Virus record (IMG/VR): IMGVR_UViG_3300035703_000155
Coordinates: 1-45,467 of that record
Source of the DNA: a virus
Reading direction: 5' to 3' (one strand)
DNA length: 45,467 bases
The position numbers were made by a program, and so were the translations under genes. A model generated the notes under the pieces. It did not search any database. It saw only the letters and a list, made by a program, of their open reading frames with translations, and had not been told where the DNA came from. Positions 3,985 through 34,497 of the stretch are shown piece after piece (position 1 is the stretch's first letter; each line of letters starts with the position of its first letter).

Positions 3985-4133
3985 CACTGCGCCTTCTGCT
4001 GCATGGCAGCGGCGATGAGCTGACGGACGAAGGCAGAGCGTGACATCAGCCCTGCGGCCTGCTGGTCAAGCCAAGCGATCTGATCGGGCGTGAGATCGAG
4101 GGTGATGGTGCGCCGTGGCGCTGGGGTCTTCAT
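3984..4133 (-). CDS. Small ribbon-helix-helix (CopG/Arc-like) DNA-binding protein, 49 aa
   Basis: Translation from ATG 4133 gives a basic start MKTPAPRR, a beta strand TITLDL and two helices (TPDQIAWLDQQA; SRSAFVRQLIAAAM). This is the ribbon-helix-helix order, in which the strand pairs between two subunits and enters the DNA major groove. The start overlaps the VRR-NUC stop (ATGA), and the stop overlaps the next gene (TGATG), so it is translationally coupled in the early operon. Known family members are transcriptional repressors, often autoregulatory. It is one of few candidate regulators here. Targets could be the inverted repeat upstream of the operon (6512-6545), which is speculation. Confidence 0.75.
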   Translation of the reverse strand: MKTPAPRRTITLDLTPDQIAWLDQQAAGLMSRSAFVRQLIAAAMQQKAQ

Positions 4134-4522
4134 GGGATAGCGCTGGGGTTTCGCTGGGGAAAGCCTAGCGGGGTTTCAATGATGCGCAACGCGTCGCCCA
4201 CCGACCGCGCCACGCCAGCGATGCCACCGGCCTGGTGGACGGCTTGGAGCCAATGGCGCTGCGCGGGTGCGAGGCGACCGGTTGGGGTCTTGATCTCAAG
4301 GGAGGTGAAGACAGCGATCCGCTGGCCGACCATCTCGGGCGTGATCACGACGGTGCGCCAGCCGATGAGATCTGCTGAGCCGCGTGCGAGGCCGAACTGC
4401 ACCATGCGGCCAGTGCGTGGATCTGGGAGGCTGCCGACCTGATTGCGGAAGATGCGGAGCTCTGGGTGCGTGCCAAGCGCGAGGCGGATGCGCTGCTGGA
4501 GGTCGGTTTCGAGGTTCGGCAT
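4130..4522 (-). CDS. VRR-NUC domain nuclease
   Basis: 130 aa. It matches the small phage VRR-NUC nucleases of the PD-(D/E)XK superfamily: an early helix with glutamate (LETDLQQRI), the acidic residue in GSADLIGW, the catalytic-type SLEIKTPTGRLAPAQRHW (E-x-K), and the terminal GGIAGVARS strand/helix. Known members act on branched DNA or assist recombination and replication. ATG 4522 is preferred over GTG 4525 because it shares its A with the TGA of the methyltransferase-like frame (TGATG). The stop overlaps the RHH gene start. It lies between a methyltransferase-like gene and replication genes. Confidence 0.85.
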   Translation of the reverse strand: MPNLETDLQQRIRLALGTHPELRIFRNQVGSLPDPRTGRMVQFGLARGSADLIGWRTVVITPEMVGQRIAVFTSLEIKTPTGRLAPAQRHWLQAVHQAGGIAGVARSVGDALRIIETPLGFPQRNPSAIP

Positions 4523-9355: not shown

Positions 9356-9377
9356 TGCACCGCCGATGGTGTACGCT
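9356..9377 (+). promoter_or_regulatory. Phage promoter-like element P1 (TGCACCGCC-N7-TACGCT)
   Basis: TGCACCGCC at 9356-9364, a 7-nt spacer GATGGTG, and TACGCT at 9372-9377. The same composite occurs at 9669-9690, at 13324-13303 on the minus strand and, degenerate, at 14003-14024, each time upstream of a small gene. The right half can be read as an extended -10 (TGGTG-TACGCT). It lies 44 bp upstream of ATG 9422. Confidence 0.5.
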
Positions 9378-9421
9378 GTGTGAGCACCGGCGGCATTGCC
9401 GCCCCCATCAAGGAGGTCTAG

Positions 9422-9595
9422 ATGGCTCACGTCATCACCACTGAGATCAACGGCCAGCCCGCAATGGTTGCTGCTGATCTGGTCGCCACGCGCCGCCCAT
9501 GCGGCCTGTGGCACGTCCAGCTGGCCGACTGCGGCGCAACGCTGACAGTCGATGCGACTGAGGAGCAGGCGCACCGGATTCTGTCCGAGGCCTGA
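9422..9595 (+). CDS. Hypothetical small protein, 57 aa
   Basis: MAHVITTEINGQPAMVAADLV followed by GLWHVQLADCGATLTVDATEEQAHRILSEA. Compact alpha/beta protein with two cysteines; no family recognised. The ribosome site AAGGAGGT, 5 nt before the ATG, is one of the strongest in the window, and promoter-like element P1 lies just upstream, so it is probably highly expressed as a single-gene unit. A GC-rich hairpin (9603-9620) follows the stop directly. Confidence 0.65.
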   Translation: MAHVITTEINGQPAMVAADLVATRRPCGLWHVQLADCGATLTVDATEEQAHRILSEA

Positions 9596-9602
9596 CATCC
9601 AC

Positions 9603-9620
9603 GCGGCCCATCCGGGCCGC
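9603..9620 (+). terminator. GC hairpin after the 57-aa gene
   Basis: GCGGCCC (9603-9609), loop ATCC, GGGCCGC (9614-9620): a 7-bp perfect stem 7 nt after the stop codon. There is only a short CACCCATTT tail, so it is a terminator-like hairpin without a proper T-tract. Confidence 0.45.
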
Positions 9621-9668
9621 CACCCATTTCGACAGCAGTGTGAAGGAATATGAACTGCGTCGAGAGCG

Positions 9669-9690
9669 TGCACCGCTGATGGTGTAGGAT
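9669..9690 (+). promoter_or_regulatory. Phage promoter-like element P2 (TGCACCGCT-N7-TAGGAT)
   Basis: TGCACCGCT at 9669-9677, spacer GATGGTG, TAGGAT at 9685-9690. It is nearly identical to P1, including the spacer. It would start the long operon of small genes beginning at 9833, leaving a leader of about 135 nt. Confidence 0.5.
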
Positions 9691-9832
9691 GACGTAACGA
9701 GGGAAGGGGAGCGGCACCTCGCTAAAAACGCGGCCAGGGGGAACAGAGCACACGACCCCGCAATCGAGCTCAACAGGGCCTGACTAAGCCCGCACCGCCG
9801 GTTGGCCCGGCACACCTATCCCTCACAGGCTC
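9691..9832 (+). other. Structured ~140-nt leader upstream of the small-gene operon
   Basis: Between P2 and ATG 9833 there is no convincing gene, but several potential stems: CGAGG 9698-9702 with CCTCG 9717-9721; GGGG 9737-9740 with CCCC 9756-9759; GGGC 9776-9779 with GCCC 9788-9791; GCCGG 9797-9801 with CCGGC 9807-9811. I compared it by eye with glutamine, cobalamin and SAM riboswitches and saw no match. It may be a regulatory leader or a small RNA. Confidence 0.35.
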
Positions 9833-10027
9833 ATGCTCACCGCCACTCTCCTGGTGATCTGGAAGCTGCTCCTGCCGCTGCTGCTGGTAGTCGCCGTGAT
9901 CGACTGGCTGACCGCCAGCGACGATCGCCGCGTCCGCGTTCTGCACAGCACCGGTCTGAGCCAGCGTCAGATCGCCGACCGCCTCAATATCACCCGCTAC
10001 CGCGTCCGCCGGGCGCTCGCATCATGA
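9833..10027 (+). CDS. Membrane-anchored helix-turn-helix protein, 64 aa
   Basis: Residues 2-24 form one hydrophobic transmembrane helix (TATLLVIWKLLLPLLLVVAVI); residues about 38-63 form a helix-turn-helix (STGLSQRQIADRLNITRYRV followed by RRALAS). A juxtamembrane DDRR segment joins them. This is a one-pass membrane protein with a DNA-binding-type domain on the cytoplasmic side, unusual for its size. It could tether DNA to the membrane or sense envelope state; no evidence separates these. It is the first gene of the coupled small-gene operon; its TGA overlaps the next ATG. Confidence 0.7.
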   Translation: MLTATLLVIWKLLLPLLLVVAVIDWLTASDDRRVRVLHSTGLSQRQIADRLNITRYRVRRALAS

Positions 10028-10312: not shown

Positions 10313-10538
10313 GATCACAGGCGCCATGCTGCCGTGGCAGTGGCGCGAGGAATCGACCAGCCAGCACGGTGACGGCATCAGCCGGCCGCGGCCCAAGACT
10401 CGCACCAAGGAGTTTCGGCTGATCATCTACCCGCAGGGTGCCCGGCCGATGACGTGGATCACGCGCGCGGAATCGAAGCGCCACGCGATCCGCTATGCGC
10501 AGGCGCGCTGGCCGGGCGCCGCGGTGGAGGTGGCGTGA
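10305..10538 (+). CDS. Hypothetical protein, 77 aa
   Basis: A basic N-terminal half (ISRPRPKTRTKEFRLIIYPQ) leads into an alpha-helical C-terminal part (ITRAESKRHAIRYAQARWPG) ending in AAVEVA. No family recognised. The C-terminal helix followed by a strand matches small phage proteins that modify residue arrays in host enzymes only loosely, so I assign nothing. Overlaps the preceding gene by 8 nt; its TGA overlaps the GTG start of the secreted protein (GTGA). Confidence 0.55.
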   Translation: MPEITGAMLPWQWREESTSQHGDGISRPRPKTRTKEFRLIIYPQGARPMTWITRAESKRHAIRYAQARWPGAAVEVA

Positions 10539-10858
10539 TCCGCGCTGCCTTGACCGCTGCGGCCCTGCTGCTGGCCAGCCCGGTGCAGGCTCGGCAGGTG
10601 ACTGCCACTGTGTACCACGGCTGGTATCACGGCCGCACCACCTACTGCGGTGGCACCTACCAGCACTGGGGCATCAGCGCCGCGCATCCATGGCTGCCAT
10701 GCGGCACGCCGGTGCGCGTCAGCCACCGCGGCCGCACGCTCACGGTGCGTGTCACCGATCGGTGTGACTGCGGCTCGATCGATCTCAGCGCCGGTGCTGC
10801 TCACCGCCTTGGTGTGCCGCTCGATGGCATTGCAACTGTTCGCATAAGCCACCCATGA
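10535..10858 (+). CDS. Secreted RlpA-like double-psi beta-barrel protein
   Basis: 107 aa from GTG 10535. Residues 1-20 (IRAALTAAALLLASPVQA) form a signal peptide with an AxA-type cleavage site; there is no lipobox cysteine. The mature part (about 87 aa) follows the RlpA/barwin-like barrel: VTATVYHG, GISAAHPWLPCGTPVRV, LTVRVTDRCDCGSIDLS, HRLGVPLDG. Known members bind or cleave peptidoglycan glycan strands, and RlpA acts at the septum. Four cysteines could form two disulphides in the periplasm. It sits in the early-type operon, 6 kb from the endolysin and oppositely oriented, so lysis is not its obvious role; changing the host wall or excluding other phages is possible. Confidence 0.75.
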   Translation: MIRAALTAAALLLASPVQARQVTATVYHGWYHGRTTYCGGTYQHWGISAAHPWLPCGTPVRVSHRGRTLTVRVTDRCDCGSIDLSAGAAHRLGVPLDGIATVRISHP

Positions 10859-13070: not shown

Positions 13071-13259
13071 TCAGCGCTCGAGGTGGTGCTCCAGATCAGT
13101 GCAGGCACTCAGCAGAGCATCTAGCAGCGGATCGCTGCAGAGCTCCTCCCACCGATCTTCGGTGGTGGTGTCCCGCAAGGTCTGGAAGAGGATGACAACT
13201 GCTTCCGCAGAGCGGAGCGTGTCAGCCAGTGCCTCGAGGCCGGCAGAGAGGGTATTCAT
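13071..13259 (-). CDS. Small hypothetical protein under P3, 62 aa
   Basis: MNTLSAGLEALADTLRSAEA then VVILFQTLRDTTTEDRWEEL and a C-terminal helical end. Acidic, all-helical. I place the start at ATG 13259 because promoter-like element P3 lies 44 bp upstream and the upstream in-frame part lies across that promoter. Expressed alone, leftward, between two rightward blocks, with its own terminator: the pattern of a lysogenically expressed moron or regulator. Function unknown. Confidence 0.6.
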   Translation of the reverse strand: MNTLSAGLEALADTLRSAEAVVILFQTLRDTTTEDRWEELCSDPLLDALLSACTDLEHHLER

Positions 13260-13302: not shown

Positions 13303-13324
13303 AATATAGTCGATAGGCGGTGCA
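13303..13324 (-). promoter_or_regulatory. Phage promoter-like element P3 (TGCACCGCC-N7-TATATT)
   Basis: Minus strand: TGCACCGCC at 13324-13316, spacer TATCGAC, TATATT at 13308-13303. The spacer differs from P1/P2 while both boxes are kept, which argues that both boxes are functional. It precedes the 62-aa gene by 43 bp. Confidence 0.55.
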
Positions 13325-13924: not shown

Positions 13925-14002
13925 GGGCTGGCCGCCGCTGGGCCAACGGTAGCGGGGAGAACCGAAACGGGAAGTGTGAAGGATTGTGACCGGCGCGCAG
14001 GG

Positions 14003-14024
14003 TGCGCCGTATGCGGCGTAATCT
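14003..14024 (+). promoter_or_regulatory. Phage promoter-like element P4 (TGCGCCGTA-N7-TAATCT)
   Basis: TGCGCCGTA at 14003-14011, spacer TGCGGCG, TAATCT at 14019-14024. It matches P1-P3 at TGC, CCG and TANNNT with identical spacing. The next ATG is at 14032, seven bases past the -10-like box, so the transcript may begin at or next to the start codon (leaderless). Confidence 0.45.
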
Positions 14025-14031
14025 TCACCCC

Positions 14032-14223
14032 ATGACCTACATCCTCCGCATCGGCCCGTGGCACGTCGGGCCGTTCACCACCCACCAAGGCGCGCAGCAC
14101 TGGGCAGAGCGCCACGGCTGTGACGACTACACGATGATCCCGCTCGATGATCCGGCCGAAGCGCCGATCAAGATCCACCGGCTGCGCATGGCGCCGCTGG
14201 CTCATCCGATGCGGCAGCCTTAA
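14032..14223 (+). CDS. Hypothetical protein, 63 aa
   Basis: MTYILRIGPWHVGPFTTHQG then AQHWAERHGCDDYTMIPLDD. A beta hairpin followed by a helix and strand: a compact alpha/beta protein. No family recognised. The start lacks any ribosome site but lies 8 nt after P4's -10-like box, consistent with leaderless initiation. It precedes the HNH gene by 24 bp and may be co-transcribed with it. Confidence 0.55.
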   Translation: MTYILRIGPWHVGPFTTHQGAQHWAERHGCDDYTMIPLDDPAEAPIKIHRLRMAPLAHPMRQP

Positions 14224-14829: not shown

Positions 14830-14861
14830 TTCGCGCAATCTTGCGCGAATGGTGCGCGAAT
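14830..14861. repeat. attP arm-type repeats, right arm
   Basis: TTCGCGCAA (14830-14838, inverted), TGCGCGAAT (14842-14850) and TGCGCGAAT (14853-14861). The two direct copies are 11 bp apart, as in the left arm. The last lies just before the integrase start codon, so integrase binding could repress its own gene. Confidence 0.6.
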
Positions 14862-14871
14862 GGAGAGGGGC

Positions 14872-16002
14872 ATGGAAACCGAGAAGAAGGAGTGGAAGGC
14901 CGATCGGAAGGTGCCCGGCCTAGGGCTGATGGTGCTGCCGAGCGGCGTCAGCACCTACTACCTGCGCTATCGCGAACCAAGCGGAAAGCAGCAGCACCAC
15001 AAGATCGGCCGGGCCGGCGTGGTGACCCTCACGGCTGCCCGCGAGGAGGCGCACAAGATCCTCGCCGCCGTCGCCCGCGGTGAGGCGCCCACCAGCGCCA
15101 AGCAGAAGCAGCGCCAGGCGCCGACGATCGCCCTGCTGTTGGAGCGCATCAAGGTGGAGCACTGGCGCAAGCTGCGGCCGGGCACCGTCGTCAACAATGA
15201 GCTGATCTGGCGCCGTCACCTGCTGCCGGAGTTTGGCAGCGTCAAGGTCAACGAACTGCAGACGCGGCAGGTGGCAGCGTGGTTCCACCGCGCCAGCCTC
15301 GAGGCGCCAGTGCGCGCGAACCGCTGCCTCGAGGTGCTCAGCAAAGCGATGAACCTGGCAGAGCTGTGGGAGCTGCGGCCGCAGAACTCAAACCCGTGCG
15401 TGCGGATCGGTGCCAACACCGAACGCATGCGCCGCCGCTACCTGACACGCGAGGAGCTCACCCGGCTGCTGGCTGCGCTCGACACCTACGGCATCACCGG
15501 CGTGCGGTGGCGGTTCGCGCAGCTGATCCACCTGCTGCTGCTCACCGGCTGCCGCATCTCCGAGATCAAGGATGCGCGCTGGAGCTGGGTACAGGGCAGC
15601 GTGCTGGTGGTGCCGGCCGAGTGCCACAAGACCGGCGCAGATGGCACCGATCGCCGCGTGCAGCTGCCACCTGCTGCGCTCGACGTGCTGGCCGAGCTGC
15701 GCCGCCGATCGAACAGCGAGTGGATCATCGCTGGGGATGGTGATGGCCACCTGATCGGCTACTGGCGGATGTGGGCTGACCTGCTGGAGCAGGCCAAGAT
15801 CGAGAACCTGCGGGTGCATGACCTGCGCCACAGCTTTGCGAGCTACGCCATCAGCCAGGCCAAGCTGTCGCTGCCGGTGGTCGGTGGCCTGCTCGGCCAT
15901 GCCAGCCCGCAGACGACGCAGCGCTATGCGCACCTGATCGAGGAATCGGCCGCGGCTGCTGCTGCGCTGGTGGCCGCGCAAATAAAAGCCCCGGCTGACT
16001 AG
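14872..16002 (+). CDS. int: Tyrosine-recombinase integrase
   Basis: 376 aa site-specific recombinase that would insert the phage into the host initiator tRNA gene through the attP core at 14678-14725. The N-terminal part (to about residue 75) is an arm-binding domain of the P4/P2-integrase DUF4102-like kind; the core-binding region follows. The catalytic domain has LLLLTGCRISEIKDARW (Arg I), CHKTGADGTDRRVQLP, HDLRHSFASYAI (HxxR), GLLGHASPQTTQRYAHL (His and the Tyr nucleophile). ATG 14872 has GGAGAGG just upstream; ATG 14860 is in frame but would overlap the arm repeats. It is transcribed away from attP, as in lambda-type modules. Confidence 0.95.
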   Translation: METEKKEWKADRKVPGLGLMVLPSGVSTYYLRYREPSGKQQHHKIGRAGVVTLTAAREEAHKILAAVARGEAPTSAKQKQRQAPTIALLLERIKVEHWRKLRPGTVVNNELIWRRHLLPEFGSVKVNELQTRQVAAWFHRASLEAPVRANRCLEVLSKAMNLAELWELRPQNSNPCVRIGANTERMRRRYLTREELTRLLAALDTYGITGVRWRFAQLIHLLLLTGCRISEIKDARWSWVQGSVLVVPAECHKTGADGTDRRVQLPPAALDVLAELRRRSNSEWIIAGDGDGHLIGYWRMWADLLEQAKIENLRVHDLRHSFASYAISQAKLSLPVVGGLLGHASPQTTQRYAHLIEESAAAAAALVAAQIKAPAD

Positions 16003-21636: not shown

Positions 21637-24600
21637 TTCACGTCCGAGATCAGGCGGGCGGTGATGCGGGTGGCGCTCTCGACGTAGTAGGCGATCACGT
21701 CCACAGCAGAGGCCGTTGTCGTGAGTGTAGGTGCGGTGCCACCGGGGAACTTCCAGTTGCTGCCGTAAGCCAGCGTGCGGCTGCCGGTGCCGTCCTGCGT
21801 GATCACGATCGTGCCGGCCTGGCCAGCGGTCAGGTTGCTGGGGTTGGCCAGTGTGCGGTTGCCGCCGAGCGTGACTGAGAAGTTGTTGCCCGCCGCGAAG
21901 TCCGGGGTGATCGTTGCGCCATCGGTGAGCGCCACCACGCTGCCGCGTTGTGCTGCGGTGAAGCTCTGTGCTGTCGCCAATGCCGCGTAGCCGGTGATCG
22001 TCTGCCCAGCCGCGAACGTGATCGCGCCGGTCATCGTGCCGCCGGTTCTCGGCAGCGCAGCGTTTGCCAGGTCGTATGCCGACTTCACCGCGTTCGGTGT
22101 CGCCGCGGTGCTGGTGCTGGTCGAGCTGGTCGAGTCCGTCAGCTGCACCACGCCCACCACGCTGGTGGTGCCTGCCACGATCTTGCTGCCAGCGATCGCA
22201 GCACCAGCCGCGATGTCGGCGTTGACGATCGTGCCGGAGAGCACCAGCGTGCCGTCTGCGTTCGGCAGATAGATCAGGCGATCGGCGGTCGGGTCTGCCG
22301 CCAGCAGCCGCGTTTCGTTCGCGTCGTCGGTGCTGCCCTCGAACACCATGCCGACGTTCGCGCCGAGCGTGATGTCACCGGTGAAGATGCCGCCGGCCTT
22401 GGGCATTGCCGCAGCAGCTAGGTCATATGCCGCCTTCACCGCGGTGGGCGTTGCCGCCAGCACCGAGCTGGTAGTGCCGGTGGAGTCGCTCAGCTGCACC
22501 ACGCCAGCCACGCTGGTCGATGCCGATGCCACGCTGATCGCCGGGGTGGTGGTCCCGTCAGTGACTGATATGGCGCCGGAGCCCGTCACGCTGGTGACGG
22601 TGCCCACGTAGTCGACGCCCCACTCAATGCCGGTGGCTGTGGCGCTGTTCGCGCGCAGCACCTGGCCGTTGGTGCCCACGCCCAGCTTGCTCAACGCGGT
22701 GCTGCTCGAGGCCGCCAGCAGGTCACCCTTGGTGTAGCTGGTGTTGCCGGTGCCGCCCTTGCTGGCCAGCAGCGTGCCGCTGGTGATGTTGTCGGCGTTG
22801 CGGCACTCGTTTGAGACTTCCTCAATCGCCGCCTGCACGTTGGTAGCCGAGACGCTGGCGCCTGGGGTGAAGCTGACGTTGTTGGCCGACTGCGCCACAA
22901 ACGTCGAGCTAACGTCGATCTCGGTCCAGATCGTGCCGTTGGACAGGATCAGGTCAGGCGGCGCCAGCAAAGTGGTCGGCGCTGGAGCGGTGCCGGTGCC
23001 GCCAATCGACACCACGACGTAATAGCCGTTGTTGCTCGAGCTGGCAGATGGCAGAGCGTTGCCGACCGTCAGACCGATCGATGAGCCCTCGGTCGTTACG
23101 GTTGCGATCTGGTTGGTGGTGGCGTTGTAGGTGCCGGCGAAGATCACCGAACCGGCCGAGATGCCCAACGGCTGCCAGACGTTGCCGTCCCACAGGAAAA
23201 AGGATTCGTCGAGCGGATTAAAGAAGATCTGACCGATGAAGTCGGCAGTGGGCAGTGCCTCGCCGAACTTGGCGGTGGAGTAGTTCGCCAGCTTGGCGCC
23301 GGTCACCGCATCGTCAGCGATCAATGCGGTGGCAAAGGTGCCGCTGGTGATCTTGCTTGCGGCCAGATCGGGGATGTCCGCTGCATCGAGCGTGGTGCCT
23401 GCGGTGACATGCCCCTGCGCATCCACGGTCACCTTGGGGTAGGTGCCGGCGGTGGCGCTGTTGGTGTGGTTCAGCGTGCCGCTGCTGACCGATAGACCAG
23501 TACCAGGTTGGATGATGCCCTTGGTGCTGGCGGTGGCGTCCGGCAGGTCACCGGGCACCAGCGCGCGGAAGGTGGGCGCCGCGTCGGCGCCGGTGGCCGG
23601 GCCGGCAAACACACGTGCCGCGCTCTGCGTGTCGAGCGTGGTGGTGATCGTGGCGCTGTAGTTGTCGGGATACGCAACCGAGAACGCGAGCGGGCTCGAG
23701 TCGCTGAAGCTGATCGTGCTCAGCGATGCCTGGCGCACCCATGTGCTGCCGTCCCATGTGTATTCGATGCCGGTGTTGGTGTTGATCCACTGCTGGCCGA
23801 TGAAGGCGCCAGAACCGGACGGCGTGGATGCAGCCACCACGGCGGCCGATTGATCGGCGAGCTTGGCGCCGGTGATCGCATCATCAGCCACCTTGCCGGT
23901 GGTGACTGCCAGGCTTGCCAGCTTGGCCTCGACCACAGCGCCTGATGCGATCGTCGCGGCGAAGGAGCCGGTGCCAGAGCCCGTGACATCACCGGTCAGG
24001 GTGATCGTCTGGTCGCCTGTATTGGTGCCGGATGTGGTGCCGCTGTGGGTGCCGGAGAAGGTGCCCGACTGCGTGGCCAGTGTGCCGAGCCCCAGCGTGT
24101 CGCGCTGTGCTGCGGCGTCTGCGTCATCGAGCAGCGCACGGCCTGCTGCGGTGCAGCTGATCTCCTCCACATCGCCAGCGCCTGCTGTTGCGCGGCCCAG
24201 TAGCACGTTGCTGCCGCTGGTGTCCTGCAGCTTGGCGTATGTCACGGCGCCATCAGCCAGCGCTGCGGTGCCAAGGTTGCTGGCCTTGGCCGTCGTCACA
24301 GCACCATCAGCCAGCTTGGCGGTGGTCACCGAGCCATCAGCCAGCGCAGGCGTCACCGCCGCGTAGGCGCCGGATCGGTAGACCTGCAGCTCGCCGGTGC
24401 TGCTGTTCAGCCAGCCGCGGCCTTCGTAGTTGTTGGTGGTCGGCGCTGTGGCGCTGATCGCCACCGAGCTGCTGTCAGCCAGCTTGGCTGCGGTGACCGC
24501 ATCATCGGCCAGCGCGGTGGTGCCGAGCTTGGTGGTGCTGGATTGGTCGAGCTTGTCGAGATCGATCGAGCTGGCGTCCACCAGATCGAGACCGGCATCC

Positions 24601-26084: not shown

Positions 26085-26110
26085 GAACGGCGGCCCAGTC
26101 TGAAGTCAGG

Positions 26111-29100
26111 CTAGCGAATGTTGAACCCACTATCCGCGAAGGATGCGATCAGGCTCAAGGTGCGGCCATCCGATTGAACACACGGATGCTCGATGGCGCT
26201 CACGCTTACTTGCCCTTCTTCATCCATCTGCACTTCAGTCACGCGGAATACCCGCTTGCGGGTGATCGTCTGGCCGAGCACGAACAGGCGGCCGGGGTAC
26301 GGCGCCAAGGCTGCCGCGGTGCCGTTGCTCACGGTCACGCTGTCCACCTGCACCACGGCGCTGCCGGACTGGTAGACCAGCGCCTTCAGGCCGCTGCCGT
26401 TCGGCACCTGGCCGATCGGCGTGTTCAGCACACCGCCGGCCTCGATCACGCCAGTGGTCACCTGATCCCATTGGTTCTCGCCGATCGCCACGTAGATGTA
26501 GCTGCCCGGCTCCAGCACGCTGTCGGTCGGGAAGGTCGAGAAGTCGATCGCGCGGCGGATGTGGCGCCGCTGATTGCAGAGCAGCTTGCCGAACAGGATC
26601 GCCTGGCTGCGGTTGGTTACGTACTGCGAGAGATCGAAGGTCTGCCGCACGGCGTTCGCTTCGGTCGCATCAGCACGGCTCACCTCCACGCTGCGGTTGC
26701 GCGGGAAGACGCCATCGATCTCGGTGTCGCGGTAGATCACTGACGCGATCAGGTCTTGCACGTTGCTGCCGAAGTCGATGAACTCCTCGCGGTAGCTGTC
26801 CTCGAGGATGTTGCCCTGGTTGAAGAGCGCGGTGATCATCACCTCGCGGGTGATGTTGCCGGCCTCGTCGCACGGCACGGCCGGCACCAGCGTTTCGCGG
26901 CCGCCGACACGGCCGAGCTCGAGCAGCGAGAACGGCGCCACCTCAGCCCAGAACTGACGCCATGGCGTCTTGTCTGCGATCACGCCATCCATGAACAGGC
27001 CGTTCTGGCGGCAGAAGCGCTTCGCCAGCGCCAGCGCCTCGAGATCCACGCCGCCGATCTTGGCGAAGCGGCCGATGCCATTCTGCGGATCAAGGATGGT
27101 GTCCAAGAAGATGTCCGGCGCGTAGCTGCTGGAGCCATCCGGCTGAGCGGGGTAGGTGCCGTCATCACGCAGCCGGCGCAGCTTCTTACCCTCAAGCGTG
27201 AACACCGACAGCGAGCGCAGGTCTTGGATGCCCTGGCCGCTGTAGGCGTTGAAGCCCATCAGCTGCAGGCCGTTGTACAGGTTGGGGTAGTTGCTGAAGC
27301 TCTCGGTGCGCTGCTCGGTCACGGCCGTGATCGCCAGCTCGGGTCCACCCTCAAAGCTGAAGCTGATCTGCGTGTCCGAGCGAACGGAGAACAGGCCCCA
27401 CTCATCCACTTCTGACGGGTTGACGTTCAGCGGTGGCCGGAGGCCCATGCGGGTGCGCACGGAGCCAAGGAACGTGAACTGCCCACCGGCCGGGCCGGGG
27501 ATGATCACGGTGTCGCCGCTGTTCTCGATGTAGGCGAAGTCAGCGAACCCGTGGGTGCGCATCTCGGCCGCGGTTTCGGCGATCGGGTCAAAGCGGAATT
27601 GCCAGTTGCCGATGTTGTCGCCTGCGATGAACTTCAGGGACACGAAGTTGTCGACATCAGCACCACGGCGCACGGCGAAGATGTAGGGCAGCCGCGCCCA
27701 ATCCTGTCCGGTGCGGCGGTAGCGCACCCAGAAGAAGGCGGAGCGCACCTTGGTGCCGTTGTCGCTGTCGCGGTAGTTCTTGACCTTCTCCTCGCCGTAC
27801 TTCTTGGCGCGGCCCTGCACGCGCTTGAACACCTTGGCCTTCAGCGCGAAGTCAACCACGCGGCACTCGGTGATCGTCTCGTAGCCGGCCTCCTCCATCT
27901 TCACCAGGCACTTGGTGTTAAAGAAATCGTTCCACGCTTCCGGCCTAGAGAGATAGTCATTCAGATAGGTGATGCGGTTCTGCTTGCTGCTGATCTCATT
28001 GCGCAGGTTGGCATCACGCGCGGCCATGGCAGCCAGATCGAGGTTGTTCGCGTCTTTGTAAAGGCTTGCGATTTCCTCTTGTAGCTTGGCTTGTCGCCGC
28101 AGAAGCGCCTTTCTATCCTCGCGAAGGGTTCCGCCCTTTGGTGTATTGAAGCCGTACTCACTGAATGCCCAGTCTAGCTTTGCCTGCTGATTGCGGAGGC
28201 GCTTGCTTAGGTTTTCAATCCGGCCTCTAGCTTCTCTGATCCACTGCTTTCTTCTGTCTATATAGTTTTGGCTCGTGTTGGTCTTCTTTCGCTCAGCGCT
28301 GATCTCCTCTTGCCATTCCTCGATATTGTTTCTCTCGTTGTCCCTGTCTCGGCGCGTGTTGAGAACTCGTTGAGCGAAGGGGTTGATCCGATCGTCAAAC
28401 ACGTCGCCATCGTCGTTAACGATGCTGTCCAGTTCGGCGGCGGTCCAGCGTTGATCGCGCAAATCTTCAATGCTGCCGATCAGCGCATTGATTTCATTTA
28501 GCTTCGCAGATACTCCACCGCCAACGCCTGCCTTGAGAATTGGCTCGTTGCGCAGCAGTTGCTCATTCAGCGTCGTGATCTGCTGCTGCAGCAGCACTAT
28601 CTCGCGGCTGGCTTCACTGCCGTTCTTTTTGAAGTCTTCTGTGCCGTAATCCTCAGTTGGGCACACACCAGATTCGATGCACTCCATCGCCACGCGCATG
28701 GAGCCGTCATCCAGCTCGACGTTCTTGATCGGTGCCGCTACACGGAACTTCGCGCTGCCCAGCTTGTAGGTGCTGGCCGCGTCGATGTAGCTCGAAAGTG
28801 TGCGGCGCAGCTCACGCGCAGCCCGTGCGGTGTCACTGTCGGTGGACAGGATGCGCCGGAAGATCAGCGTCATGCGCTGGCCCACGGGGACCACCGGCCG
28901 CTCATCGTTGAACACGTTGGTGGGCCAGTAGCTCTGTAGACCGTCGATCTCGATGCCGACTGGCGCATCGCGCTCGTCGCCGTCCTCATCGCGGTCGATG
29001 TAGTTGACGTTGATCGGGATCGGCGCGAACACGCCGAACCGGGTCATGGTGTTGGGCGAGAACGCCTGGCTGAAGCCATCGGTGTGCTGATCACCGATCA

Positions 29101-30572: not shown

Positions 30573-30961
30573 CAGTAGTCGAGCTCGCCGAGAAGGGTGA
30601 TCGAAACGCGGCTGCGGCCAGTGAAGACCGACTGCACCTCAGGCGGCCCGGCATACTCCCACCGGATGCTTGTCGGCGCCTGGATGTAGCCGCGCAGGCT
30701 GGTGGCCATGCCGACGAACAGATCAGCCGGCAGGGTGAAGCGATCGAACCCGCCGCTGGTGCTGTTGTAGTGATCGAGCAGCTGCTCGGTGGTGGCGTCC
30801 GGGATGTTGTCGAAACCGAGCTGCAGCTCGAAGCCGGTGGCGCGGTTGCCGAAGGCACGTTTGACCGTTGCACCCGAGAGCGCCCGGTAGACCTTCACCG
30901 GGAAGCTGCCGAGCTTGAACGCTCGCGTGGTGGGCTTGATGCCAGGAAACTGTTCAGCCAT
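30572..30961 (-). CDS. Minor tail protein, gpM-like
   Basis: 129 aa. MAEQFPGIKPTTRAFKLGSF opens with the KP..R.F..GxFPVKVYRALSG pattern of the phage minor tail (gpM) family, followed by GFELQLGFDNIPDATTEQLL, DHYNSTSGGFDRFTLPADL, and ends with a VSITLLGEL strand. It directly follows the tape measure gene as in lambda, and its start overlaps that gene's stop. Confidence 0.82.
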   Translation of the reverse strand: MAEQFPGIKPTTRAFKLGSFPVKVYRALSGATVKRAFGNRATGFELQLGFDNIPDATTEQLLDHYNSTSGGFDRFTLPADLFVGMATSLRGYIQAPTSIRWEYAGPPEVQSVFTGRSRVSITLLGELDY

Positions 30962-33900
30962 CAGCGCAGCCCCACACGGGTACGGGTGGATGGGCTCTGC
31001 TGCAGCTTATCGAGCGTCATCGTCATCCCACGCTTCGCGCCATCGCGGGATGCAGCGCGGCGGGTTTCGGCCATGGCAGCCTCCAGCTGCTCGCGGCTCA
31101 CGTACTCCACGCCGCCGATGTTGGTGGTCTGGAAGCTCATGTTCAGTACCGGGCTGGTGGCGCCCTGCGCCGGGCCGGCACCCATCACCTCGCGCATCTT
31201 GTCCTGCCCCTGCAGCGCCACCGGGATGCGGCGGCCATCAGGCAGCGGCACGTAGGCCTCAGGTTTGCTGCCCTCGCCGTAGAGCGCCAGCTGCGGCCGA
31301 TTGGCGATGCCGCCCTGGCTGTAGCGCTTGAGCGGTGCCGGGCCGCTGGAGGTCATCACGCCACCGTCAGCGAAGCCGCTGATCTTGGGCACAAAGTTGC
31401 CGGCCGCATCGGTGCCGCCGCTCAGGAAGCCCTTCAGTGCCTTGATTGCCGCCTCGATCACGTAGATCTGGAACAGCTGCTTGGCGATGTCCTTCAGCAC
31501 GCCGCTGGCGATCCCTTTGAGGCTCTCAGCCCAGTCGTCGGTGCCGGATGCGAGCAGATCGAACACCTGCCCCAAGCCGCTGCCGATGCTGTTTGCGATC
31601 GCGTCGATCGTGCGCTCTTGCCGCTCACGCTCATCGTTCGCCTTTCGCTCGGCCTCGGTGAGCGCCATCGTCTTATCGACCACCTGCCCTTGCAGGTTGA
31701 GCCGCTGCTCGATCACCTGCACCTGCTTCTCGAGCTCCTGCCGCAGCGCGCTCTCCACCGGCAGCGTGGCGATCTTCGCCTGCAGCTCCTGCTCCATTGC
31801 CAGCAGCTTCGTCTGCTCGATCGCAGCCGTCGCCTCGAGCTCCACTCGCTGCCGGGCCAGCTCAGGGGCAATGCCCTGCTTGAGCAGCTCGGCGTAGCGC
31901 AGCTCATCGCGCAGCTTGTTTGCGGCCACCTCTTGCTGGCTGCTGAGCGCCTCGGTAATGGCGCCGTACTTCTGCTCGAGCGCTGCCAGCGTCTGCTGTT
32001 CGTTGAGCAGCTGCTGCTGCCGCTTGCTCTCATTCAGCGCTGCGTCGAGCCGGGCTCCGGCCTGCTGTACACCGGCCGGCATTGAACCGGCGCCAGCAAC
32101 GCCCGGCAGCGTTGGTGCAGCGGGTGCAGCGGTGATTGTGGCGCCGCTGAAGAACCGGCGTTGAGCCTCGCGGCGATGCGGAGCCATCATGGCCACACCG
32201 CTCTGTGGGCTGGTGCCGAACGCATCGCGTGCGGTCAGGCTGGCCTTAGGGTTGCCGCCCAGCACGGTCCGGTAAAGCGTCAGCAGGTCGGCGCCCTTGG
32301 TTGACATCCCCACGCCGGCAAACCGGTCTTGGAAGTAGCGGACCACAGGGCCTTGCACCTGCTCCTCAAAGCTCTGGCCCTTGTAGGCGCCGTACTGCCG
32401 GCGCTCGTTCGGGCCGAACTGAATCAGCCCCATGTAGTTGCCGCCAGCGCCGCCGAATTTAGATGGGTTGTAAGTGCCGCCGGTCTCAAACCCGATGATC
32501 GTGGCAAGGTCGAGCGGTGACACGCCGAGCTTGTTGGCCGCGGCCACTAGCGCTTTGCCTTGGCTGCTCAGGTTGCCGCTGGTCACAAACCCACCGCCCA
32601 GAGCACCCGTTGCACCGCCGCCAGCGCCGCCGAGCGTGTCAGCCGCGTCCTGCGCGCCCTGGCGCATCTTCTCCGCGAGCTTCTCCCCTGCGTCCTGCAG
32701 GATGTTGCTCACCGTGCGCGCGTAGGCCTCTTGGATCTTGCCGATGCCTTCGGCCACGCTGAGCTTGTACTCCTCGAGGCGGCGCTGCAGGTCGGTCTGA
32801 GCGTCCACCGCATTGCGGTCGTTCTCGATCCGCTGCTGGTCGTAACGGCGGAAGATCTCCTTTACCTCGCGGGCCGTGTCGATGCCCTCGGTGGAGAGCC
32901 CAGCCGCGGCCAGCCGCTGGCGCTCAGCCTCGAGCGCGCGGTCTTCCAGCACCGCCTGCAGCTTGGTGCGCGTGTCGGCGATCTGCCGCTCGATCTTCAG
33001 CCGCTCATCGCCGAGATCACGCTCGAGCGCTGCGGCACGCTTTGCCGTCTCGCGCTGGAAGTCGGCCAGCTGCTCAGCATTGCGCTGCGCAGCATCCGCC
33101 AGCTTGTCCTCGGCATCCTTGCGGATCTTCAGCTCATCCTCGAGCGCTTCCTTGCGCGCACGCTGCCGGGCAGCCTCACGTTCGGCCGCGGCCGCCTCAC
33201 GGGCTTCGCGCTGGTCGGCGGTAAGGGCCTGCTGTTGGTCGCGCTTCTGATCGGCCGCCAGCAGCTCCTGATAGATCTCCTGCTGACGCTTCAGAAAGAA
33301 CTGGTTCTTGCCGCCAAGGTCGAAGCTGAACGCTCCAAAGCGTTCATCGGTTTCTCGGGCCGCCTTCTGTTGTGCTTCAACGCGGAGCTGAGCGCGGCGC
33401 CCGGCATCACCGTCGCCCGTGATCGAGCCCAGAATGTCCGTCGCATCGCGCAGCACGCCCGTGAAATTGCGCAGCAGGGCAACGGCTGTAGGGCCGAAGA
33501 TACGGGACAGGGTTTTGCCCAGCTCTTCGCTCGCAACCTGAAAGTCCTTGATCGCCTGCTGGCCAGTGTTGAACTGCTGGTTCAGCTTGCCGAGCTGTGT
33601 GTCCTGCAGCTTGCCAAGAGCCCGGAGCACCACGTCGGTGGTGACCTTGCCTTCGGCTGCAAGGTTCTTCAGTTCGCCGATCGAGACGCCCAGTTCCTTG
33701 GCAATCGCCTGCGCAGCCAGCGGCGCCTGCTCGCGGATCGAGCGCAGCTCCTCACCCTGCAGTACGCCGGATGCGAGGCCTTGTTTCAGCTGGATCAGCG
33801 CGTTGCTGGTTTCCTGCGCGGTGGCGCCGCTGTTGCGCGCAGCAGCCGAGAAGCCGATGAAGGCCTTCTCCAGCTCTTCCACCGTGATGCCGGTGGGCCG

Positions 33901-34497
33901 CAGGCTGGCGTAGAGCGAGGCAAAGCTGTCGGCCGCTTCGGTATTGCTCAGGCGCAGTGTGGTGGCGATGCGCGCCACCGATGCCTGAACCTGGTTGTAC
34001 TCGCCAAACTCGTTGGAGAGCGCTCTGATGCGCGCCTGAGCGGTTTCTGCGGCCAAGCCAACACTCGCAACGCCCGTTACGGCCTGCTGAGCGCTGCCGA
34101 GCGCGCTTGCCGCGATCGAGCCGGCTATGCCACCTGCGAAGCCCGCCAGCGCCGCTCCGCCACGGCTCAGGCCGCCGCCTTTCTGCGCGGTGTTTTGGAA
34201 CTTCTTGAGGCGCTGCTCGACAGACTCCAGATCCTTGCTCAGCAGCTTGAACTTTCGGCTGCCAAACTCCGCCTGATCCCTCAAGGCCCGCAGCGCCACC
34301 GCGGTCTTCTGCAGCCCCGCGATGGTGTTGCCTGAGCTGCTGCCCAGCGCCTTGGTGGCGGTGTACAGGTTGTCGAGCGAACGCTTGCTCACGTTGCTCT
34401 GCTGCGTCAGCCCTTGCAGGCTGCGCTTCAGCTGGTCGAGCCCCTGCCCTTCCAGCTTCGCCGTGAACTTGATCGCCGTGTCGAGGGACATCGCCAT
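30961..34497 (-). CDS. Tape measure protein with lysozyme-like domain
   Basis: 1178 aa scaffold that sets tail length and may reach into the host envelope on injection. Residues about 130-320 carry the tape-measure N-terminal domain (ARIRALSNEFGEYNQVQAS; LYASLRPTGITVEELEKAFI; EELRSIREQAPLAAQAIAKE). A long charged coiled coil follows (REAREAAAAEREAARQRARK). Residues about 645-730 match a transglycosylase-type fold: LGVSPLDLATIIGFETGGTY, NYMGLIQFGPNERRQYGAYK, with the Glu in GFETGG as catalytic candidate. A second helical region and a hydrophobic Gly/Ala-rich C-terminus complete it. The start is ATG 34497 or 34491. Confidence 0.95.
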   Translation of the reverse strand: MAMSLDTAIKFTAKLEGQGLDQLKRSLQGLTQQSNVSKRSLDNLYTATKALGSSSGNTIAGLQKTAVALRALRDQAEFGSRKFKLLSKDLESVEQRLKKFQNTAQKGGGLSRGGAALAGFAGGIAGSIAASALGSAQQAVTGVASVGLAAETAQARIRALSNEFGEYNQVQASVARIATTLRLSNTEAADSFASLYASLRPTGITVEELEKAFIGFSAAARNSGATAQETSNALIQLKQGLASGVLQGEELRSIREQAPLAAQAIAKELGVSIGELKNLAAEGKVTTDVVLRALGKLQDTQLGKLNQQFNTGQQAIKDFQVASEELGKTLSRIFGPTAVALLRNFTGVLRDATDILGSITGDGDAGRRAQLRVEAQQKAARETDERFGAFSFDLGGKNQFFLKRQQEIYQELLAADQKRDQQQALTADQREAREAAAAEREAARQRARKEALEDELKIRKDAEDKLADAAQRNAEQLADFQRETAKRAAALERDLGDERLKIERQIADTRTKLQAVLEDRALEAERQRLAAAGLSTEGIDTAREVKEIFRRYDQQRIENDRNAVDAQTDLQRRLEEYKLSVAEGIGKIQEAYARTVSNILQDAGEKLAEKMRQGAQDAADTLGGAGGGATGALGGGFVTSGNLSSQGKALVAAANKLGVSPLDLATIIGFETGGTYNPSKFGGAGGNYMGLIQFGPNERRQYGAYKGQSFEEQVQGPVVRYFQDRFAGVGMSTKGADLLTLYRTVLGGNPKASLTARDAFGTSPQSGVAMMAPHRREAQRRFFSGATITAAPAAPTLPGVAGAGSMPAGVQQAGARLDAALNESKRQQQLLNEQQTLAALEQKYGAITEALSSQQEVAANKLRDELRYAELLKQGIAPELARQRVELEATAAIEQTKLLAMEQELQAKIATLPVESALRQELEKQVQVIEQRLNLQGQVVDKTMALTEAERKANDERERQERTIDAIANSIGSGLGQVFDLLASGTDDWAESLKGIASGVLKDIAKQLFQIYVIEAAIKALKGFLSGGTDAAGNFVPKISGFADGGVMTSSGPAPLKRYSQGGIANRPQLALYGEGSKPEAYVPLPDGRRIPVALQGQDKMREVMGAGPAQGATSPVLNMSFQTTNIGGVEYVSREQLEAAMAETRRAASRDGAKRGMTMTLDKLQQSPSTRTRVGLR

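Follow-up and report, generated by a model that had tools for sequence, protein, structure and literature searches.

A putative composite promoter before two gene sets in genomes of uncultured cyanosiphoviruses

To our knowledge, the regulatory programmes of temperate viruses of freshwater picocyanobacteria are still poorly understood. In phage lambda, the activator CII acts at pRE and pI on a direct repeat with a 10-bp period and thereby switches the early regulatory operon and the integrase together, while Ogr of phage P2 and Delta of P4 are small zinc-binding phage activators whose site lies near -55 at promoters with a poor -35. The acr-aca operons have a constant promoter with an inverted repeat, followed by variable small genes and then by a fixed gene. 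In phage T4, the MotA box (a/t)(a/t)(a/t)TGCTTtA, centred at -30 and 12 ± 1 bp from the -10, is read by a monomer together with AsiA and replaces the -35 (PMC2988021). The bacterial regulator NrdR needs two 16-bp boxes with 14–17 or 24–27 bp between them, which corresponds to 30–33 or 40–43 bp from centre to centre (PMC12051234).

The stretch of DNA analysed here, which we call the window, is the whole 45,467-bp contig of an uncultured virus with genes for a tyrosine integrase, RecE/RecT-type recombination, terminase, portal and tail. The cultured cyanosiphoviruses S-CBS1 and S-CBS3 are its relatives, and it most likely represents a temperate phage whose host we infer to be a picocyanobacterium. 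A literature search found no description of the promoter discussed below, nor of any promoter or regulator for this phage group. The features of the window that bear on it are collected in Table 1.

Table 1. Features of the window around the promoter-like sites, in order of position.
Feature	Positions	Strand	Description
NrdR-like zinc-ribbon protein, 90 aa	9079–9351	+	ends just before site A; best candidate for reader of the dyad
Site 0	9356–9377	+	extra dyad and -10 TACGCT, without upstream repeat; before gene 9422
Site A upstream repeat	9640–9654	+	GTGAA-GGAAT-ATGAA, second half degenerate
Site A core	9669–9690	+	dyad TGCACCG-CTGA-TGGTGTA, -10 TAGGAT at 9685–9690; orthologous sites before the same operon in relatives
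Site A predicted transcribed leader	9691–9832	+	covariation-supported pseudoknot at about 9742–9817
64-aa protein	9833–10027	+	putative transmembrane segment and helix-turn-helix (HTH); first gene of early operon
Site C	13303–13324	-	extra copy, right dyad half degenerate, -10 TATATT; before gene 13071–13259
Site B upstream repeat	13976–13990	+	GTGAA-GGATT-GTGAC, short 27-nt register
Site B core	14003–14024	+	dyad TGCGCCG-TATG-CGGCGTA, -10 TAATCT at 14019–14024
Gene 14032	14032–14223	+	fixed gene behind site B, present in 16 of 16 genomes
Tyrosine integrase	14860–16002	+	closes the strand segment of site B; 9 of 15 large relatives have a homologue

Four matches in the window and a conserved core

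The pattern TGCRCCG-N9-TANNNT, originally predicted to be a promoter-like motif in front of four small genes, occurs at just the four places named in that prediction (the cores of sites 0, A, B and C), all of them between genes, and at no fifth. Dinucleotide shuffles of the window gave a mean of 0.14 matches and none of 100 shuffles reached four, a figure that is optimistic because the pattern was picked after the sites had been seen; read backwards, the pattern matched the window once. Since the choice was made post hoc, the real test is the comparison with relatives. The excess disappears when up to two mismatches are allowed (65 matches observed in the window versus 73 expected), so that only the tight pattern is informative. 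The measured gaps to the start codons of genes 9422, 9833, 13259 (minus strand) and 14032 are 44, 142, 43 and 7 bp, in line with the predicted 8–145 bp, and a standard -35 is absent as claimed, the best hexamer in the window at a spacing of 15–19 bp agreeing at 4 of 6 positions. The wording "fixed 7-nt spacing after the 9-mer" is unclear and conflicts with the N9 of the pattern itself.

For the comparison, 80 related loci were gathered with RecT as bait, and a main set of 18 phage genomes was formed from 16 motif-bearing genomes plus S-CBS1 and S-CBS3; genes were called with a custom codon-based script, which missed the zinc-ribbon gene in some genomes, the window included. A matrix built from the first sites found 93 matches of at least 14 bits in the 80 RecT loci, and none when reversed. 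In the 18 phage genomes, 27 of the 29 matches of at least 16 bits lie between genes, with none for the reversed matrix. As intergenic DNA makes up 7.9% of the bases in these genomes, the motif is not as frequent inside genes as before them. The element is kept across uncultured cyanosiphoviruses, from which 121 distinct sites were compared after near-duplicates had been dropped at about 85–90% identity; these sites are not independent of one another.

The core consensus is TGCNCYG-N4-YGGTGTATAGT. It comprises an 18-bp dyad, TGCNCCG-N4-CGGTGTA, of which the originally described TGCRCCG is the left half and whose last bases on the right also begin the -10. T16, A17 and T21 rank among the most informative core positions, in agreement with a sigma70-type TANNNT. 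The right half CGGTGTA is conserved like the left, with C4/G13 present in 120 and C2/G15 in 115 of the 121 sites, so the unit is the dyad and not a single TGCRCCG box. Transcription is predicted to start about 7 nt past the -10, where many relatives of site B have tcacATC or ttcATC; at site B itself the predicted start falls at about 14032, on or beside the A of the ATG, which would make the transcript leaderless or nearly so. The TANNNT, the placement between genes and the conservation in relatives together bear out the promoter-like character of the sites, and the motif is very probably the downstream half of a real and highly conserved composite promoter.

An upstream repeat and the genes behind the sites

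The upstream half of this putative promoter is a direct repeat, GTNAM-N5-GTNAM, which has a 10-bp period and lies 20–45 nt from the core in 89 of the 121 distinct sites, as against 7% of random stretches. In a composite search that allowed gaps of 24–40 nt, the strictest form, TGTGANNNATTGTGA, stood at 36 nt from the -10 block in 39 distinct phage copies, at 25 nt in 5 and at no other distance, a step of 11 bp or about one helical turn; the stretch separating repeat from core is otherwise variable. About a quarter of the distinct matches, some of which are false positives, have no clear repeat; site 0 and site C are among them, and these two copies lack the upstream element or half of the dyad. 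The composite pattern of repeat plus core was seen at 76 places among viral contigs. Its two matches in a scan of a genome collection, in unrelated bacteria, have spacings of 29 and 30 and no TGC half-dyad and were taken to be chance, so no prophage host was found in that collection. Matches of a looser core pattern in unrelated phages among the viral contigs (L161, L163, L168, L170, L173, L179 and L181) were likewise judged to be chance.

A TTGACA -35 at a spacing of 15–19 bp is not a general property of the sites, 76% of which agree with it at three positions or fewer; 9% agree at five or six (random, 1.6%), mostly as TTGGCA at the poor 19-bp spacing. S-CBS1 has a repeat, GTTACGAAATGTCAC, and a -10 TACTAT with no good -35, and lacks the TGCRCCG dyad, the zinc ribbon and the HTH protein. 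In the S-CBS3 clade, TTGAC is present at about 17–18 bp, the repeat is missing, and a different palindrome, GGTATGCCATACT, lies across the -10. In L180, a TTGACG was gained 16 bp from the -10 while the dyad was kept and the repeat lost, and in L093 the same TTGACG accompanies an alteration of one repeat half-site. From these contrasts, repeat and -35 seem able to stand in for each other, with the dyad apparently an element of its own. At sites A and B of the near-complete genome G010 (locus L205), both repeats have changed to GTTGAGAAA..AAC forms and the dyads are identical, GCACCGCCGGTGGTGC; loci L229–L232 have the same gene as G010 behind site A.

The genes around the sites follow a fixed order. 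Site A is preceded by RecE, RecT, an HTH_17 protein, gene 8531 and, last, the zinc-ribbon gene; between it and site B come, in most cases, the 64-aa membrane/HTH protein, then a series of small early genes and an HNH gene on the opposite strand. Behind site B lie a slot of zero to four small phage-specific genes and gene 14032, which the integrase follows in 9 of 15. Each genome thus has one site before an early operon (A) and one before a highly variable small-gene slot (B). The 73 copies of site B precede 58 different first genes, dozens of which encode unrelated small proteins; family searches left nearly all slot genes without a match, and no tested one clearly belongs to a known family. 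The slot may possibly include genes for counter-defence or host takeover. In the window it corresponds to 14024–14032; most relatives have variable genes between site B and gene 14032, as in G001, G003, G011, G015 and L087–L159. Gene 14032 occurs in none of the cultured phages of the collection. Within the early operon of the window, 10535–10858 encodes a small protein that by eye resembles RlpA-type cell-wall proteins. Gene 9422, behind site 0, is present in just 1 of 15 large relatives, and gene 13071–13259, behind site C, has a homologue in G008 and L016 that immediately follows a complete site B; sites 0 and C look like promoter copies that moved with an accessory gene.

Further supporting site A as a real start point, the leader predicted downstream of it contains a conserved pseudoknot of 15 pairs, seven of them changed on both sides, in which 99% of cells are paired. 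The alignment has 28 cells changed on both sides versus 7.8 in shuffles, and at most 45% are paired if it is slid by one column. The leader is conserved in S-CBS1 (26090–26167, minus strand), in S-CBS3 (28794–28904, minus strand) and in part of the group. An Rfam search of the site A region and leader gave no family, and the leader is a candidate for a new cis-regulatory or small RNA of cyanosiphoviruses. A glutamine riboswitch, considered as the identity of the L027 leader, found no support in the Rfam search. A second conserved leader element, GGCCACAAGCCGGATAGCGCGCCCCGGATTCTCCGC..GTGGACAAGAGA, lies upstream of the HTH gene in L186, L236, L245, L314, L316 and L319 and also in the S-CBS1 leader (L005, about 4095–4160), sometimes beside the pseudoknot leader. 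Elsewhere, positions 10845–10882 of L049 match the abiF RNA family barely over the gathering score (39.9 versus 37 bits), and a tRNA-Cys called by ARAGORN at 32067–32162 (minus strand), inside the large ORF 30961–34491, is probably a false positive.

Candidate readers of the dyad and the repeat

Within one genome the dyads of sites A and B show greater similarity than permuted pairs do (p = 0.0002, with shared ancestry incompletely corrected), which argues for a genome-specific and hence phage-coded reader. The zinc ribbon is present in all 16 motif-bearing genomes and absent from S-CBS1 and S-CBS3; among cultured phages, the nearest zinc ribbons are in unrelated cyanophages or in an unannotated record. 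It matches the N-terminal zinc ribbon of NrdR (Pfam PF22811, E 1.7e-8, above the cut-off), as do all 33 aligned homologues, and four cysteines are invariant across them. The C-terminal ATP-cone of NrdR was not matched in the 90-residue protein. The twelve best PDB fold matches to its structure model (mean pLDDT 79) are all NrdR, with modest E-values.

Distances between zinc ribbons follow distances between dyads at site A (r 0.40, n 85; partial r 0.43), where the co-variation could be plain linkage, and also at the distant site B (r 0.40, n 61), where the partial r after other genes is 0.29; Mantel permutations remove phylogeny incompletely. For RecT and the HTH_17 protein r is about 0–0.07, and the latter (gene 8307), although universal in the group, was rejected as dyad reader as its divergence does not track the dyads. 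Site B dyads are tracked as well by gene 8531 (0.32) and by the neighbouring gene 14032 (r 0.41), so that the co-variation of the zinc ribbon is support and not proof. G010 has both the most diverged zinc ribbon and, at both sites, the most diverged repeats and dyads. Taken with the likeness of the A and B dyads, this tracking makes a phage-coded dimeric regulator likely, and the zinc ribbon is the best, if tentative, candidate for it. Of the original proposal of a phage-coded activator or sigma-like factor, the phage-coded regulator is likely; nothing sigma-like was found among the window proteins searched and the -10 is an ordinary TANNNT.

The reading we prefer, at roughly even confidence, is that of a composite phage promoter defining a small regulon, with an activator at the repeat, a phage dimer at the dyad, and sites A and B switched together. 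Host RNA polymerase with its housekeeping sigma would read the TANNNT. An activator bound to GTNAM-N5-GTNAM at about -67 to -42 would recruit it in place of a -35, as suggested by the position of the repeat, its helical phasing and its loss where a -35 was gained. A dimeric phage regulator, for which the best candidate is the NrdR-like zinc ribbon encoded directly upstream of site A, would bind the dyad, whose centre lies at about -19.5 and which overlaps the -10, and would switch the early operon (A) together with the accessory-gene and integrase segment (B); the dyad would most likely serve as an operator for repression or feedback. A bolder form, in which the stand-alone NrdR-type zinc ribbon without ATP-cone is a phage master regulator that binds both repeat and dyad as two boxes in helical phase, looping or bending the promoter so that early operon and accessory and integrase genes are switched jointly, strikes us as doubtful.

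The dyad could instead be the operator of the 64-aa membrane-anchored HTH protein, which would autoregulate site A and also control site B. This protein has an HTH and in most genomes is encoded by the gene that comes first after site A, and the S-CBS3 clade pairs a divergent homologue of it (33% identity) with a different palindrome at the -10. We nevertheless consider this unlikely, since 23 of 102 site-A loci lack the gene within 2.5 kb downstream and yet mostly keep dyad and repeat, and since G010, a near-complete genome, keeps the dyad without it. The protein thus appears dispensable and a weaker candidate than the zinc ribbon. It is very conserved, and a membrane-anchored DNA-binding protein would be unusual.

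The repeat, for its part, could be a site of the host redox and light response regulator RpaB, so that phage early genes would follow the light status of the host, with the dyad as a distinct operator belonging to the phage. RpaB reads HLR1, KTTACAWW-N2-KTTACAWW, and activates from -66 to -45 (PMC13421787), and the repeat shares the 10-bp period and the position window of activating HLR1 (PMC13421787). Its opposite strand fits HLR1 with the third base freed (2 genic and 20 intergenic matches in the 18 genomes), and S-CBS1 has such a repeat though it lacks both zinc ribbon and HTH protein. Strict HLR1, however, has no match in these 18 genomes, as the third base of the half-site is C, G or A and seldom T, and the joint change of the repeats at A and B of G010 suggests a phage-specific reader; the RpaB reading seems rather improbable.

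Still less credible is the version of the original prediction in which TGCRCCG would be a complete box by itself, recognised by a phage activator or sigma-like protein as MotA recognises its box at -30. The missing -35 and a TGC that is nearly invariant at about -28 would suit it, but the right half-dyad is equally conserved, and a second conserved element stands upstream. The likeness to T4 MotA boxes that had been drawn does not hold, TGCRCCG being one arm of a symmetric dyad that runs into the -10, with the substitute for the -35 further upstream. The window proteins that were searched yielded no sigma factor; the one partial match, of HTH protein 9833 to sigma region 4, stayed below threshold. 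S-CBS3 (GU936715.1) carries an annotated group 2 sigma factor gene at 21858–22757, and no sigma gene was recognised in the window.

That repeat and dyad act as RNA, as a hairpin attenuator or terminator rather than a promoter, might account for the GC-rich inverted repeat that some sites have shortly before the start codon but is extremely improbable: the dyad is conserved symmetrically with no base covariation or compensatory changes among the 121 sites (286 paired cells observed versus 304 expected by shuffling), as befits a DNA site and not an RNA stem, the TANNNT and the 11-bp step make sense on DNA only, and the sites lie upstream of the leader. Chance or functionless sharing by descent, to which the membership of all these phages in one broad group would point, is just as improbable, as flanks and the repeat–core stretch diverged while spacing and half-sites held, sites A and B of one genome precede unrelated genes, and the reversed control gave none.

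Relation to known systems

The strict signature of the composite promoter lets regulon genes of such phages be found in any metagenome, and the analysis yields a regulator gene that can be tested and draws attention to a hypervariable small-gene slot behind site B. Like T4 middle promoters, these sites combine a host-type -10 with a phage-specific element upstream of it and have no -35. The MotA box, however, is asymmetric, whereas here a dyad abuts the -10 and a separate repeat lies upstream, and the sites do not conform to a MotA box; among the about 30 window proteins searched, a subset of the ORFs, none matched a MotA- or AsiA-like family. CII-type promoters of lambda resemble the proposed circuit in the 10-bp-period repeat and in the joint switching of early operon and integrase, but the CII site straddles the -35, whereas the repeat here occupies about -67 to -42, and nothing CII-like was recognised among the proteins. 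Ogr and Delta offer the parallel of a small zinc-binding phage protein, an upstream site and a poor -35. They differ in that the present zinc ribbon fits NrdR far better (4 of 33 homologues match Ogr_Delta, best E 0.013, and the window protein does not) and precedes early rather than late genes.

NrdR itself has a homologous zinc-ribbon domain, and the distances between the centres of repeat and dyad, 28.5–32.5 or 39.5 bp, are suggestively close to the windows of the NrdR boxes. Here, however, the ATP-cone, the nucleotide sensor of NrdR, is lacking, the targets are not ribonucleotide reductase genes, and the two elements are unlike in sequence. At site B, the succession of dyad promoter, variable slot and fixed gene 14032 recalls acr-aca operons, with the difference that gene 14032 has no DNA-binding domain match. 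The circuit is apparently new and yet of a broadly familiar type, in which one shared regulator would govern at least two key gene sets per genome.
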